The notes under the pieces were generated by a model, which was given only the letters and a program-made list of their open reading frames with translations, ran no database searches and had not been told where the DNA came from. A DNA stretch of 64,000 nucleotides from Phosphitispora fastidiosa (GTDB taxonomy: Bacteria; Bacillota; Thermincolia; Thermincolales; UBA2595): contig NZ_JAHHUL010000020.1 of the NCBI RefSeq assembly GCF_019008365.1, positions 1 to 64,000 of the forward strand. Reading direction: 5' to 3'. Shown piece by piece: positions 254-7,500 of the stretch. Each line of letters opens with the position of its first letter. Position 1 is the first letter of the stretch. The position numbers and the translations under genes were made by a program.

Positions 254-281
254 AAAAGAGCCTAATAGCTCTCTTTTTTTA
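254..281 (+). terminator. Possible terminator between convergent genes
   Basis: A 5-bp stem AGAGC/GCTCT (257-261, 268-272) is followed by C and seven T residues on the + strand. It overlaps the last codons of the minus-strand LysR gene and would end transcription of the upstream + strand unit. The stem is short, so the call is tentative. Confidence 0.4.
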
Positions 282-1146
282 TATGTGACAAAAAGGCCAA
301 TGCTGCCGGAGAAAGGTGAACTCCTTTGGGATAAATACAGAGCAGCTTCCGGTTCATTTGCAGCTCAGGAAAACTGGGGGCACATAAAAGGCCGGTCTGC
401 AGTTCCAGCCCCACGGTGAACCGGGACAGAAATGTAATCCCCATTCCGGCCATGACTGCCCTTTTCACAGCCTCGGTATCACCAAGGGTGACAACCCTGC
501 CGGGTTTGATCTGGACACGTTCCAGAATGGCTTCCAGGGCCTTTCTGGTGGCTGAACCCAATTCCCTCATGATAAAAACCTCTTTAGTGAGCAGTTCCGG
601 CTGAAAGACGGTCGTTTTAGACAAAGGATGGTCCGGACAAACTAAAAAAAGAATCTGGTCTTCAAGAATTGGTTCAATACACAGTCCCGGAGGGTCGGCA
701 ATTCCCGCAATAAAGGCCAGGTCGAAATCCCGGTTGGCAGCCCGGGCAGCGATTTCATCACTGCTGCCCAGTTCCAGGGAAGCCTCAATATTGGGATGCT
801 GCTTCAGAAAAGTAGCCAGTGGAGTAGGCAGTAAATAACTGCCCATAGTTGTGCAGGCGCCAATACTCAGCTTACCGATATGAAGGCCCTGTAATTCCTG
901 GAGGGTTCTGTCAGCCTCATCGGCCAGCCGCAACATCTGTTCAACATATTCAAACAACCTGCGGCCCGCTTCACTCAGGTAAACACCACGGCTGTGCCTG
1001 TTGAACAGGCTTATCCCTACTGATTTTTCAAGGGATTCAATCTGGCGTGACAGGGCCGGCTGAGTAATATGAAGTTTTTCGGCTCCTTTACTGAAGCTGC
1101 CGGATCTGGCGATTTCATAAAAAGCCCTGAGCTGGGATAACTCCAT
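262..1146 (-). CDS. LysR-family transcriptional regulator
   Basis: This 294-residue protein has the standard LysR layout: an N-terminal winged helix-turn-helix (residues about 1-60, with the recognition segment around ITQPALSRQIESLE) and a C-terminal periplasmic-binding-like co-inducer domain (about 90-290). It is transcribed divergently from selD, and only 123 bp separate the two starts. LysR regulators usually control the adjacent divergent gene. An 18-nt motif in this intergenic region recurs upstream of the membrane selenoprotein gene at 4301, so the regulon probably covers the selenoprotein genes. The co-inducer is unknown; a selenium, sulfur or redox signal is a guess from context. Confidence 0.9.
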   Translation of the reverse strand: MELSQLRAFYEIARSGSFSKGAEKLHITQPALSRQIESLEKSVGISLFNRHSRGVYLSEAGRRLFEYVEQMLRLADEADRTLQELQGLHIGKLSIGACTTMGSYLLPTPLATFLKQHPNIEASLELGSSDEIAARAANRDFDLAFIAGIADPPGLCIEPILEDQILFLVCPDHPLSKTTVFQPELLTKEVFIMRELGSATRKALEAILERVQIKPGRVVTLGDTEAVKRAVMAGMGITFLSRFTVGLELQTGLLCAPSFPELQMNRKLLCIYPKGVHLSPAALAFLSHIKKESY

Positions 1147-2784: not shown

Positions 2785-4164
2785 ATGGCTTACAAAATAG
2801 TCATTCTGGGTGGAGGACCGGGAGGTTATGTGGCTGCCATCAGGGCTGCACAACTGGGTGCAAAGGTCATGGTGGTGGAAAAAGACCGTTTGGGCGGAAC
2901 CTGCCTTAACAGGGGCTGCATTCCTACCAAGGCGTTGGTTTCCGGGACGGAAGTACTCCGAGGCCTTAGAAATAGTCGGGAATTTGGCATTGATGCCGGT
3001 AACCCGGTGATAGATTTTCCCCGTTTCATGAAGCGCAAGGACCAGGTGGTCCAAAGACTGGTTACCGGTATCAACTACCTGTTTAAAAAGCACAAGATTG
3101 AGACAGTAAAAGGCACCGGAAAACTGTTGTCTCCAAACAGTGTTCAAATTGACAAGGAGGATGGCAGCAGTGAAAAGGTACAGGCTGAGAACATAATTAT
3201 AGCAACCGGCTCCAGACCGGCTGTCAATCCCTCATGGGGTTATGACGGGACAACAGTGTTAACAAGTGATGAAATCCTTAACCTGACGGAATGCCCTAAG
3301 AGCTTGCTCATAATCGGCGGCGGAGTCATTGGGTGTGAATTTGCCGGTATTTTTGCGGAGCTTGGCGCCGAGGTTACCATTGTGGAAATAATGCCTTCAA
3401 TACTCAGCGGTATCGACAAGGAAGCGGCCAGGTTAATGCAGACTCTCTTTAAAAAGCAGGGGATTACTCTAAAGACCGGAACCGGAATCCAACAAGTAAC
3501 CAAGGGTCAGGATGGTGTTGCGGTGACACTGGAGACCGGGGAGGAAATCAGGGCTGATCAGATGCTGGTTTCTGTTGGGCGGGCTTTTAATACTGAAGGT
3601 ATAGGTCTGGACAATGTTGGTGTGAAGACCGGCCTCAAGGGCGAAATACCGGTCAATTCCAGGATGCAGACCGGTGTCGGGAATATCTACGCCATTGGTG
3701 ATGTAACCAATAAGATACAGCTTGCCCATGTGGCCTCAGCCCAGGGTATTGCTGCAGTGGAAAATATCATGGGTATGGAAACTGAAATGGACTATACTGT
3801 GGTGCCCAACTGTATTTTTTCTTATCCGGAAGTGGCTTCAGTTGGGATAACCGGCCAAATGGCTGAAGAGCAGGGTATTGCCGCAAAAGCAGGAAAATTT
3901 CCTTTTATGGCTGTCGGCAGGGCTCTGGCAGCAGGACAGGCAGAAGGCTTTGTAAAAATCATTGCAGACCCGGTAACTGATAAAATTCTTGGGGTAACAA
4001 TTGTCGGACCACATGCGTCAGATCTGATAGCTGAAGCAGCCCTGGCAGTAAAACTGGGGGCAACTGCTGCCCAGCTTGCCGGTACAATCCATGCTCATCC
4101 TACCTTGGCGGAAGCAGTAATGGAAGCCGCAGAGGCTGTACATGGACGCAGCATTCATATTTGA
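2785..4164 (+). CDS. lpdA: Dihydrolipoamide dehydrogenase-family flavoprotein
   Basis: This 459-residue, two-dinucleotide-binding flavin disulfide reductase has an FAD site GGGPGGY (9-15), a redox disulfide at Cys40 and Cys45 (GGTCLNRGCIPTKA), a central NAD site (IIGGGVIGCEFAGIFAELGA), and the C-terminal dimer motif with active-site His-Glu (HAHPTLAEAVMEAA). The start is ATG with AAGGAGG. It normally passes electrons between dihydrolipoyl groups and NAD. No lipoyl-bearing or 2-oxoacid dehydrogenase gene is in the window. Its position between two selenoprotein genes suggests it serves a local thiol or selenol substrate instead, which is an inference. Confidence 0.92.
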   Translation: MAYKIVILGGGPGGYVAAIRAAQLGAKVMVVEKDRLGGTCLNRGCIPTKALVSGTEVLRGLRNSREFGIDAGNPVIDFPRFMKRKDQVVQRLVTGINYLFKKHKIETVKGTGKLLSPNSVQIDKEDGSSEKVQAENIIIATGSRPAVNPSWGYDGTTVLTSDEILNLTECPKSLLIIGGGVIGCEFAGIFAELGAEVTIVEIMPSILSGIDKEAARLMQTLFKKQGITLKTGTGIQQVTKGQDGVAVTLETGEEIRADQMLVSVGRAFNTEGIGLDNVGVKTGLKGEIPVNSRMQTGVGNIYAIGDVTNKIQLAHVASAQGIAAVENIMGMETEMDYTVVPNCIFSYPEVASVGITGQMAEEQGIAAKAGKFPFMAVGRALAAGQAEGFVKIIADPVTDKILGVTIVGPHASDLIAEAALAVKLGATAAQLAGTIHAHPTLAEAVMEAAEAVHGRSIHI

Positions 4165-4300: not shown

Positions 4301-5425
4301 ATGAAGTTTAATCCATTCAAATTCCAGGTACCTTTGGCTGCAGGAGGTATCACACTAATGGCCTTTAATTATCTGCAGTTTGCCGTACCTCATGGAGAGG
4401 GACTAATCAAATTGTCAGATATGCCCTGGGGAGGGTTTAGTACAGTTCAAAATCTGTTGTACCTTTTTTTAACCGGAATTATGTTGACTTTTACAGTGAT
4501 TAGCTTGGTATCCACAGTTGTTCTTTTGAAAAGTTTAACAGTATGGCTTTTTAACAGGGAGGAATACAACGCTTTCATGAATGGGCCGCCCACCATGAGT
4601 ATTGGTATTTTTGTTCCCATTGCCTCCATGTCAATGATTGCAAATGTGGTTTTGGCTCCCTTGGCTTTTTTTATCCCTCAAATATCGTCAAATCTGCAAT
4701 CTTTGATGCTGCCCGGCTTTATTCTCTTTGGTTGTCTCTGGTTTATTCTGTTTACACTTGAATTCAAGTTTCTGAAGAACTGGTTAACCCGGCCGCTTGA
4801 TGGAGCGAAATTGAATTTTGTGTGGCTGCTTGATGTCTTCGCCTTCGGTCTGGTTAATCTGACCGGTACCGGCATAGCCTCCATGTCAGCCAACAAAGAG
4901 CTTTCGTCTATAGCTGCCTTCGGGTCTCTGCTGGCTTTGAGTGTTGGTTTGTTTTTACTGGTAACTAAACTTAGTTATTTAGTTTACCTGCAGCTAAAAT
5001 CTGTCAGTCTGCCGCAGAACCCCGTACTGCCCAGTTATTTCATTATGATTCCAATTACCTGTCTGTTTGGCATAAGTCTCCTGAGGTTTACAGATTATTT
5101 GCAGGTGCATTTTGGCTTTAATACAGAGGTTATCTCGTTCTTTTTAATCAATTTTTCATATGTCGCTGCAATTGGCTGGGGGATTTTCAGTGTTTATTTA
5201 CTCAGCAGCTACTTTAAGGAATATTTCTATAGCAGTGAATTTTCCGCAACCCAGTGGGCGATGGTCTGAGCTTTCGTTGGCTCCCAAGTTTTGGGGGTTT
5301 ATGTGTACGCAAATTATTTTCCCAATGCAGTACTTTCTGCCGTAAACTATATCAGCGTTATATTTGCATCAATCATGTATGCTGTTGTTTTTGGCAAGTT
5401 CTATCAAGCCCATAAAGTTAAGTGA
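4301..5425 (+). CDS. Polytopic membrane selenoprotein (Sec323), TsoY-like
   Basis: The frame starts at an ATG behind GAAAGGAGA, meets TGA at 5267-5269 and continues to TGA at 5423-5425, giving 374 residues. It has about ten hydrophobic segments along its whole length. The extension after the internal stop (U-AFVGSQVLGVYVYANYF, then a further hydrophobic helix and a basic tail) completes the last membrane segments, so the TGA is read as Sec323 rather than a stop. From memory, it resembles a family that NCBI calls TsoY (three-selenoprotein operon), whose biochemical role is not established. The long hydrophobic bundle could be a transporter or a quinone/heme-linked subunit. It is followed after 42 bp by the heme b and Fe-S genes. 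Confidence 0.85.
5267..5297 (+). promoter_or_regulatory. bSECIS element of the membrane selenoprotein
   Basis: The stem CTCCCAA/TTGGGGG (5281-5287, 5291-5297, one T-G pair) closes a GTT loop. The loop starts 21 nt after the TGA and begins with G, matching the other two elements. Confidence 0.75.
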
Positions 5426-5467: not shown

Positions 5468-6253
5468 ATGGATTCAGGTGTAGTTCTCTACTACAAGCCC
5501 TGGACAATATTCTGGGTAATTCAGTCTCTTGGACTACTACTATTAATAGTAGGATTGGTCAATAAATTCTCCTTTTATTTCAGCGGAAAAGGCAGACTAC
5601 TTTATCGACAGCCTGACTGCAGAGCAATGTTCGCCGCCTTTTTCCGGGAAGTATTGTTTCAGAAACATATAGCCCAAAGAAGCTTTTTGCGCTGGTCAGT
5701 TCATATGCTGGTTTTTTGGGGCTTTATCGGACTAATGTCTCTCTCGGCAATAGCGGTGGCTTTGGAGACCGTTATTCCGGAAAGCTCCGGCATCAGCCAA
5801 TATATGCTTCACGGCCAGGGCCACAACTATTATAAGCTGGCCGGAGACCTTTTTGGACTAATGCTGTTAGCCGGGGTGGCAGCTGCTTTCCTGAGAAGGT
5901 TTGTTTTCCGGGCCGAACAACTAAATACAGACTCTACTGATACGATAACATTGGTTTTTCTGTTTCTGTTGGTGATTACCGGGTTCTTCCTGGAGGCTGT
6001 GCGGATTGCGCTGTCCGGACCTGTACCCGGACTGGAGTATTCCTTTATTGGATACCGGTTGTCTGGATTTGCTTTATTTAAGGGGGAGTGGGTTCGTGCT
6101 GCGGCATCTGTGATCTGGATTACGCATGCCGTACTTACTGCCGCCATGTTGGCTTATTTTCCCCACAGCAAGTTTATGCACATCATCAATAGTCCGGCAG
6201 AAATTATCTTAAATGCTTCCGAAGAACGGGTAAGGGGTGATTTATATATATGA
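5468..6253 (+). CDS. NarI/DsrM-like heme b membrane subunit
   Basis: This 261-residue integral membrane protein has about five to six hydrophobic segments. Histidines inside or at the ends of helices (around HMLVFWGF, HGQGHNYYKL, WITHAVL) are placed like the heme ligands of respiratory nitrate reductase gamma and DsrM proteins. The stop overlaps the ATG of the Fe-S gene (ATGA), so the two are translationally coupled. As a DsrM-like subunit it would move electrons between the quinone pool and its Fe-S partner. Direction and substrate are unknown. Confidence 0.85.
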   Translation: MDSGVVLYYKPWTIFWVIQSLGLLLLIVGLVNKFSFYFSGKGRLLYRQPDCRAMFAAFFREVLFQKHIAQRSFLRWSVHMLVFWGFIGLMSLSAIAVALETVIPESSGISQYMLHGQGHNYYKLAGDLFGLMLLAGVAAAFLRRFVFRAEQLNTDSTDTITLVFLFLLVITGFFLEAVRIALSGPVPGLEYSFIGYRLSGFALFKGEWVRAAASVIWITHAVLTAAMLAYFPHSKFMHIINSPAEIILNASEERVRGDLYI

Positions 6254-7500
6254 AAAAGAGTAATAGTAAAATACCTTTGGATAAATTAAGTCCCCGCCGG
6301 TTGATGTGCCTGGATGCCTGTACCAGGTGCGGAGAATGTCAGAATTGGTGCCCGGTGTATAGTCTTACGGAAAATGAAAAAGTTACTCCCAGGGCTAAAA
6401 TAAAGAATTTCAAGTCTATCTTAAAAGCGCAGAACGGATTTCTGGGATTATTCAAATCTGACATTAGTCAGGATACCCTGTCAGACTTTTTGACAGGTCT
6501 GTATGAGTGTTCCTGCTGCAACCAGTGCCATTTCGTCTGTCCGTCAAGAATTGATACTGTTGAATTATGGGAAGATGTCCGGGAGGCCATGTTCAGGTCC
6601 GGATTAGGGCCAATTCCTGAACAAAGAACCTTCTGTGAGAATCTGGTCAAATTCGGGAATCCCTATAAAAAGGAACAGTCAGCCCGGACCGACTGGATAG
6701 AAGCCGGCCTTCAGGATGGAACACTGCTGTCCAGGCCGGAACTGATTACGGAAAATAAGGCTTCCGTGCTGCTGTTTATAGGTTGTACAGCAACCTTTGA
6801 TGAAAAGGTAAGCAGAATTGCCAAACATACGGTTAATATCCTTAACGAGGCAGGAGTTAAGTTTGGGATTTTGGGGACAGCGGAAAACTGCTGTTATGGC
6901 AAGCTGCGCCGGATGGGAGATCCGACCTTTAAACAGTTGGCACAGCAAAACATCGAAAAGCTGAACAGTTTGGGATTTGATACTCTGGTTTCTGCATGTG
7001 CAGGGTGTTTTAAAACCCTTAACGCTGATTATCCCAAGGTTGGGGAGCAAAAATATAAGATTTATCATCTTTCTGAGTATCTTGACATTCTAATCCGGCA
7101 GGGACAAATCAAGTTAAAGGAGCCTATTCCAGGAAAAGTCACCTACCATGACCCCTGCCTGCTGGGACGGCACAACAATATTTACGACGCCCCGCGCCGG
7201 GTGGTTGAGGCAATTCCCGGAATGGAGTTCGTTGAAATGGAAAAAACCAGGCAGTTCTCAAGGTGCTGCGGGGTCGGCGGAGGCCTGAAGATTGCTAACC
7301 ACGATTTGCAGGAAGCGGCATCGGTCCGCCGCATCAGAGATGCTGAGGAAACCGGAGCCGAGTATCTGACAACTCCATGCCCGACCTGCTTTTCAGGACT
7401 GTCAGGCGGCGCCTCAATAGCTGAATCAAAACTTAAAGTTATTCATATGGCAGAACTGGTGGCCAGGGCAATGGGAATTGCAACTGCTTCAAAAGACTAA
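6250..7500 (+). CDS. HdrD/DsrK-like Fe-S oxidoreductase
   Basis: This 416-residue protein has two ferredoxin-type [4Fe-4S] motifs, the first at Cys24, Cys27, Cys30 and Cys34 and the second around YECSCCNQCHFVCPS. Two CCG (DUF3483/cysteine-rich) domains follow: one with NCCYGKLRRMG and CAGC, the other with HDPCLLGR, RCCGVGGG and CPTC. This is the heterodisulfide reductase D / DsrK layout. CCG domains can bind a noncubane cluster that cleaves disulfide-type bonds. With the preceding heme b subunit it forms a DsrMK-like pair, possibly linking quinone to a thiol, persulfide or selenol carried by the DsrE-like selenoprotein. All cysteines are TGT/TGC; no Sec codon was found. Confidence 0.88.
   Translation: MKKSNSKIPLDKLSPRRLMCLDACTRCGECQNWCPVYSLTENEKVTPRAKIKNFKSILKAQNGFLGLFKSDISQDTLSDFLTGLYECSCCNQCHFVCPSRIDTVELWEDVREAMFRSGLGPIPEQRTFCENLVKFGNPYKKEQSARTDWIEAGLQDGTLLSRPELITENKASVLLFIGCTATFDEKVSRIAKHTVNILNEAGVKFGILGTAENCCYGKLRRMGDPTFKQLAQQNIEKLNSLGFDTLVSACAGCFKTLNADYPKVGEQKYKIYHLSEYLDILIRQGQIKLKEPIPGKVTYHDPCLLGRHNNIYDAPRRVVEAIPGMEFVEMEKTRQFSRCCGVGGGLKIANHDLQEAASVRRIRDAEETGAEYLTTPCPTCFSGLSGGASIAESKLKVIHMAELVARAMGIATASKD

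Follow-up and report, generated by a model that had tools for sequence, protein, structure and literature searches.

Phosphitispora fastidiosa carries a gene, tsoY, encoding a 374-residue selenoprotein with ten helices and a predicted SLAC1/TehA-type fold, in which selenocysteine (Sec) occupies the position of the phenylalanine that gates SLAC1/TehA channels. The gene is located at positions 4301–5425 (plus strand) of the window, the whole 64,000-nucleotide stretch of DNA analysed here, with the Sec323 codon TGA at 5267–5269, in transmembrane helix 9 (TM9). We put at roughly 0.5 the probability that TsoY is a SLAC1-type channel for reduced selenium/sulfur species that is gated by the chemical reactivity of Sec. 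The pore and the gate site are supported by the structural model and by alignment; the substrate we infer from gene context, and the gating chemistry is likewise put forward as a proposal. According to a 2026 review, prokaryotes have no specific high-affinity selenium transport system (PMC13188914). A SLAC1-type pore with Sec at its gate, encoded among selD and chalcogen carriers, represents a testable candidate for this missing system. For the TsoY family, this reading supplies a fold and an active site together with a hypothesis; it also offers Phe, Cys and Sec as naturally occurring variants of the residue that has been studied most in SLAC1/TehA channels.

The TsoY family is already known. 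The window protein belongs to the NCBIfam family 'selenoprotein TsoY' (NF047643; 560.4 bits over residues 2–367, cut-off 250) and shares its Sec site, in agreement with an earlier note on this DNA that described a TsoY-like membrane selenoprotein. The TsoY_fam model is also matched, and an NCBIfam scan of the protein returned the two TsoY models only. The 2026 review gives TsoY by name and by its motif UxxV with no function, citing Haft and Tolstoy 2025, and mentions neither SLAC1 nor any anion channel or gate position (PMC13188914); the naming paper may note a resemblance to channels. The SLAC1/TehA fold and the replacement of the gating phenylalanine by Sec or Cys are read here as new, although part of this may already appear in the naming paper. 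TsoY-family matches above cut-off were found in 13 of 398 genomes of the phylum, and a scan of GTDB genomes yielded 43 tsoY-type loci, 26 of them with an in-frame TGA. Named relatives, 88–91% identical at the protein level, are catalogued as Thermincola ferriacetica MAGs. A search of the host genome for TsoA gave sub-cut-off matches only.

An AlphaFold2 model of the TsoY monomer contains ten helices (pLDDT 85, pTM 0.86). The best matches to this model among solved structures are SLAC1, SLAH or TehA, with Z of 27–32 over ~300 residues, the next unrelated entry being a designed barrel with Z 17. A separately built model for the Cys branch of the family (pLDDT 88) gave SLAC1/TehA matches with Z 26–30, compared to 15 for the next unrelated entry. 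A Pfam scan gave no PF03595 (SLAC1) match for the window TsoY, and a sequence-profile search of the PDB with TsoY returned no SLAC1 chain, hence the link to SLAC1 rests on the predicted fold and on profile-profile alignment. Only the Trichococcus homologue (locus L036), with Cys at the Sec site, scores above the PF03595 gathering cut-off (37.6 versus 27.9 bits). We consider a SLAC1/TehA-type fold for TsoY well supported by the modelling, with remote sequence similarity. TsoY resembles TehA/SLAC1 (PF03595; PDB 3m71, 7en0, 7wnq) in its predicted ten-helix fold, its TM9 gate column and its inner-helix conservation, but the residue in that column is Sec or Cys rather than phenylalanine, and the plant regulatory domains are lacking. 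The same genome also has a conventional SLAC1-family gene (G000:C16:93494-94384, L067) whose product retains the gate phenylalanine (WWAYTFPL), and the Sec protein is thus an addition rather than a replacement.

In the SLAC1-type fold, TM1/3/5/7/9 form the inner layer of helices (PMC9076830), and HiTehA F262, corresponding to AtSLAC1 F450, is a documented gate residue, the removal of which increases HiTehA conductance (PMC10645844). Profile-profile alignment against ten SLAC1/TehA-type proteins places Sec323 on this residue with E-values of 5e-7 to 8e-7, compared to 0.2 or worse for a reversed-profile control, and F262 was paired with Sec323 in 59/60 resampled alignments. Two MAFFT alignments agree: the Sec or Cys of all 34 TsoY-family sequences shares a column with the phenylalanine of all ten channels, a residue that none of these 34 sequences has at this TM9 position. 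The local match aligns TsoY W319-A-M-V-U323-A with AtSLAC1 W446-S-Y-T-F450-P451, and the Pro following the gate residue is kept in the Cys branch, as in SLAC1. When hhalign was restricted to small subsets, such as only the TehA pair or only the Cys branch, the alignments were not significant and in some subsets the register was shifted; the gate assignment uses the full-set and resampled alignments. Transmembrane residues at least 90% conserved in TsoY are located almost exclusively on the odd, pore-lining helices (22/24, p 9e-7), and U323, V326 and V330 are invariant on one face of TM9. The location of Sec323 at the SLAC1/TehA gate position is well supported by the alignments and the model. 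The earlier note had placed Sec near the last helices, which holds (TM9 of 10) but understates a site that the alignment assigns to the channel gate.

A second chalcogen residue may be paired with the gate. Cys254 (codon 5060–5062, plus strand) is located on TM7; in alignment A2 it is invariant in the Sec branch (21/21 sequences), and the 13 sequences of the Cys branch all have Thr or Ser at this position. In several members Cys254 and Sec323 are the sole Cys/Sec residues. A Cys254-Sec323 selenenylsulfide may be possible, with the contact proposed from the helix positions. The Cys branch (NF047644 members L045–L058) shares the fold with the window TsoY and has Cys in the gate column, but is without Sec, SECIS and Cys254, and its gene contexts differ, with SQR-like genes present in two.

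The genes surrounding tsoY in the window occur in the order lysR, selD, dsrE, lpd, tsoY, cytochrome b, HdrD-like. A LysR regulator resembling the selenium-metabolism subfamily (262–1146, minus strand; NF040786 237 bits, just below the cut-off of 250) is followed by five plus-strand neighbours: selD (1261–2313), itself a selenoprotein gene (SGUACK; TGA 1321–1323); a DsrE-family selenoprotein (2365–2715; KVKLUGTCMDARGL, TGA 2593–2595), a near-identical relative of which at locus L017 matches Pfam DsrE; a dihydrolipoyl-dehydrogenase-type flavoprotein (lpd, 2785–4164; TIGR01350 573 bits) upstream of tsoY; and, just downstream of tsoY, a NarI/QmoC-like membrane cytochrome b (5468–6253) and an HdrD/GlpC-like protein with 4Fe-4S and CCG domains (6250–7500). 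Within 7 kb of the 27 Sec-type tsoY genes, a DsrE gene of the window type occurs at 15 loci, with selD, a selenium-type LysR gene and a NifS-like desulfurase gene each at 13, and a YedF-like DsrE gene at nine. Three selenoprotein genes (selD, dsrE and tsoY) lie inside 4.2 kb of the window. DsrE-like selenoproteins as such are known; the dsrE gene was overlooked by standard ORF calling, and a stable hairpin follows its TGA. A minus-strand ORF at 2287–2730 was rejected as a gene, being a mere shadow of dsrE. The idea that the neighbours form a split NF045663 flavoprotein/dicluster fusion was likewise discarded (82 bits for the HdrD-like protein versus a cut-off of 530). Mesobacillus selenatarsenatis SF-1 contains two Sec-type tsoY loci (L032, L034), each adjoining selD and DsrE genes, and a small CGGC-domain protein recurs upstream of tsoY (L021, L028, L029, L031, L044).

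In the proposed mechanism, the pore-plugging phenylalanine (HiTehA F262, AtSLAC1 F450) would be replaced by Sec, or by Cys in relatives, and the cargo would be a small anion of reduced selenium or sulfur (HSe-, HS-), or else an oxyanion, for example selenite, for use by the desulfurase/DsrE/SelD pathway encoded nearby. Sec, being nucleophilic, could gate by reversible bonding to the chalcogen substrate and/or by oxidation, and in the Sec branch Cys254 on pore helix TM7 would be a possible partner in a selenenylsulfide. Against a channel, a selenolate in its ionised form would repel the anions in such a pore, so that it is not evident how they could pass freely. Furthermore, the linkage of tsoY to selenium genes may reflect selenium supply for a selenoprotein, rather than transport.

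A comparison to YedE/FdhT (TIGR04112), a proposed selenium transporter that is polytopic and tied to SelD-dependent selenium use (PMC5322559), bears on this mechanism. Both are polytopic membrane proteins, but they belong to separate families: TsoY did not match TIGR04112 (Seleno YedE) in the NCBIfam scan, and the YedE of the host genome, which has both proteins, is a different gene. Among 256 SelA-positive genomes, YedE occurs in 2/11 with a Sec-type TsoY compared to 141/245 without (one-sided p 0.011, with kinship ignored), and this rarity counts weakly for a selenium channel. The specific proposal that TsoY is a dedicated selenium (or selenium/sulfur) anion channel, with a Sec gate and cargo recognition based on chalcogen chemistry, is made tentatively and falls clearly short of even odds. 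If it were true, TsoY would, to our knowledge, be the first known channel to be gated by selenocysteine.

The main rival is a general anion channel gated by redox state, in which Sec323 (with Cys254) would sense oxidation or sulfide while the neighbouring genes supply selenium or share regulation. The SLAC1 fold, the gate column and Cys254 also fit this, changes to the gate phenylalanine are known to alter SLAC1/TehA conductance (PMC10645844), and ArsR-rhodanese type regulators are found near tsoY at 5/27 loci. However, tsoY is repeatedly and strongly linked to genes for SelD, NifS-like and DsrE proteins, which favours a role with chalcogens over one in general ion balance, and the Cys branch is without Cys254. 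We consider this explanation doubtful, if deserving of serious attention.

An unlikely explanation is that TsoY uses the SLAC1 fold for a membrane enzyme, either an oxidoreductase or a chalcogen transferase, with a catalytic Sec323 facing a closed cavity and shuttling electrons, or sulfane sulfur/selenium, between a periplasmic substrate and DsrE, flavoprotein or Fe-S partners in the cytoplasm. Such partners can be named among the window neighbours (the dihydrolipoyl-dehydrogenase-type flavoprotein, the cytochrome b and the HdrD-like protein), and the DsrE neighbour has its Sec in a UxxC motif. The cytochrome b/HdrD-like pair is, however, limited to the four closest loci, a cofactor-binding motif was not found in TsoY, and no known enzyme with a SLAC1 fold was met in this analysis.

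The tsoY reading frame starts at ATG 4301, with a ribosome-binding-type GAAAGGAG upstream, and passes TGA 5267–5269 (residue 323) to reach the final stop TGA 5423–5425. The TGA is found at the same residue in 27 loci (26 from GenBank genomes and the window), all with a conserved (A/G)xVGSQVLG motif after it. Codon changes past the TGA are mostly at third positions, as they are before it (9/8/24 at positions 1/2/3 in the comparison to L018). The continuation of 51 residues past TGA 5267 to the end at 5425, as claimed in the earlier note, is borne out by this motif and third-position bias. Cys at residue 323, which the note had suggested looking for, is present in both close (L036, Trichococcus) and distant homologues (L045–L058), and none of the homologues found ends at residue 322. 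Judged by these sequence comparisons, the residues after TGA 5267 are real coding sequence.

A bacterial SECIS hairpin is located at 5279–5299 (plus strand), with a 7-bp core (5281–5287/5291–5297) and a GUU loop. Its stem starts 11 nt after the TGA for the core, or 9 nt for the extended stem, which corrects the 21 nt given previously for a SECIS-like hairpin. None of the seven core pairs is broken in any of the 25 distinct Sec genes, compared to 4.4 pairs expected under a random choice of synonymous codons, and compensating changes (A-U to G-C, C-G to U-A) are seen. The Trichococcus gene (L036:9992-11143), with Cys at the site, keeps the VGSQVLG peptide via other codons and has lost 4/7 of the SECIS pairs. 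To judge by its sequence, this gene is a natural Sec-to-Cys replacement as well as a natural control, the hairpin having been lost together with Sec. Rfam searches around tsoY gave chance matches only. The host assembly, of 4.09 Mb and 99.96% completeness, encodes SelA, SelB and tRNA-Sec, with SelD encoded in the window. The sequence evidence establishes UGA recoding with a SECIS element at tsoY. That TGA 5267 is an ordinary stop, yielding a 322-residue protein with incidental downstream conservation, agrees with the end of the mechanical ORF at 5269 but is highly improbable given the in-frame continuation conserved at every Sec locus, the homologues with Cys at the site, the ubiquitous SECIS and the full Sec machinery. 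One further locus (L015:1501-1791, genome G302) contains a C-terminal tsoY fragment only, with extra stops, and appears to be a tsoY gene in decay; SelA is still encoded in that genome.
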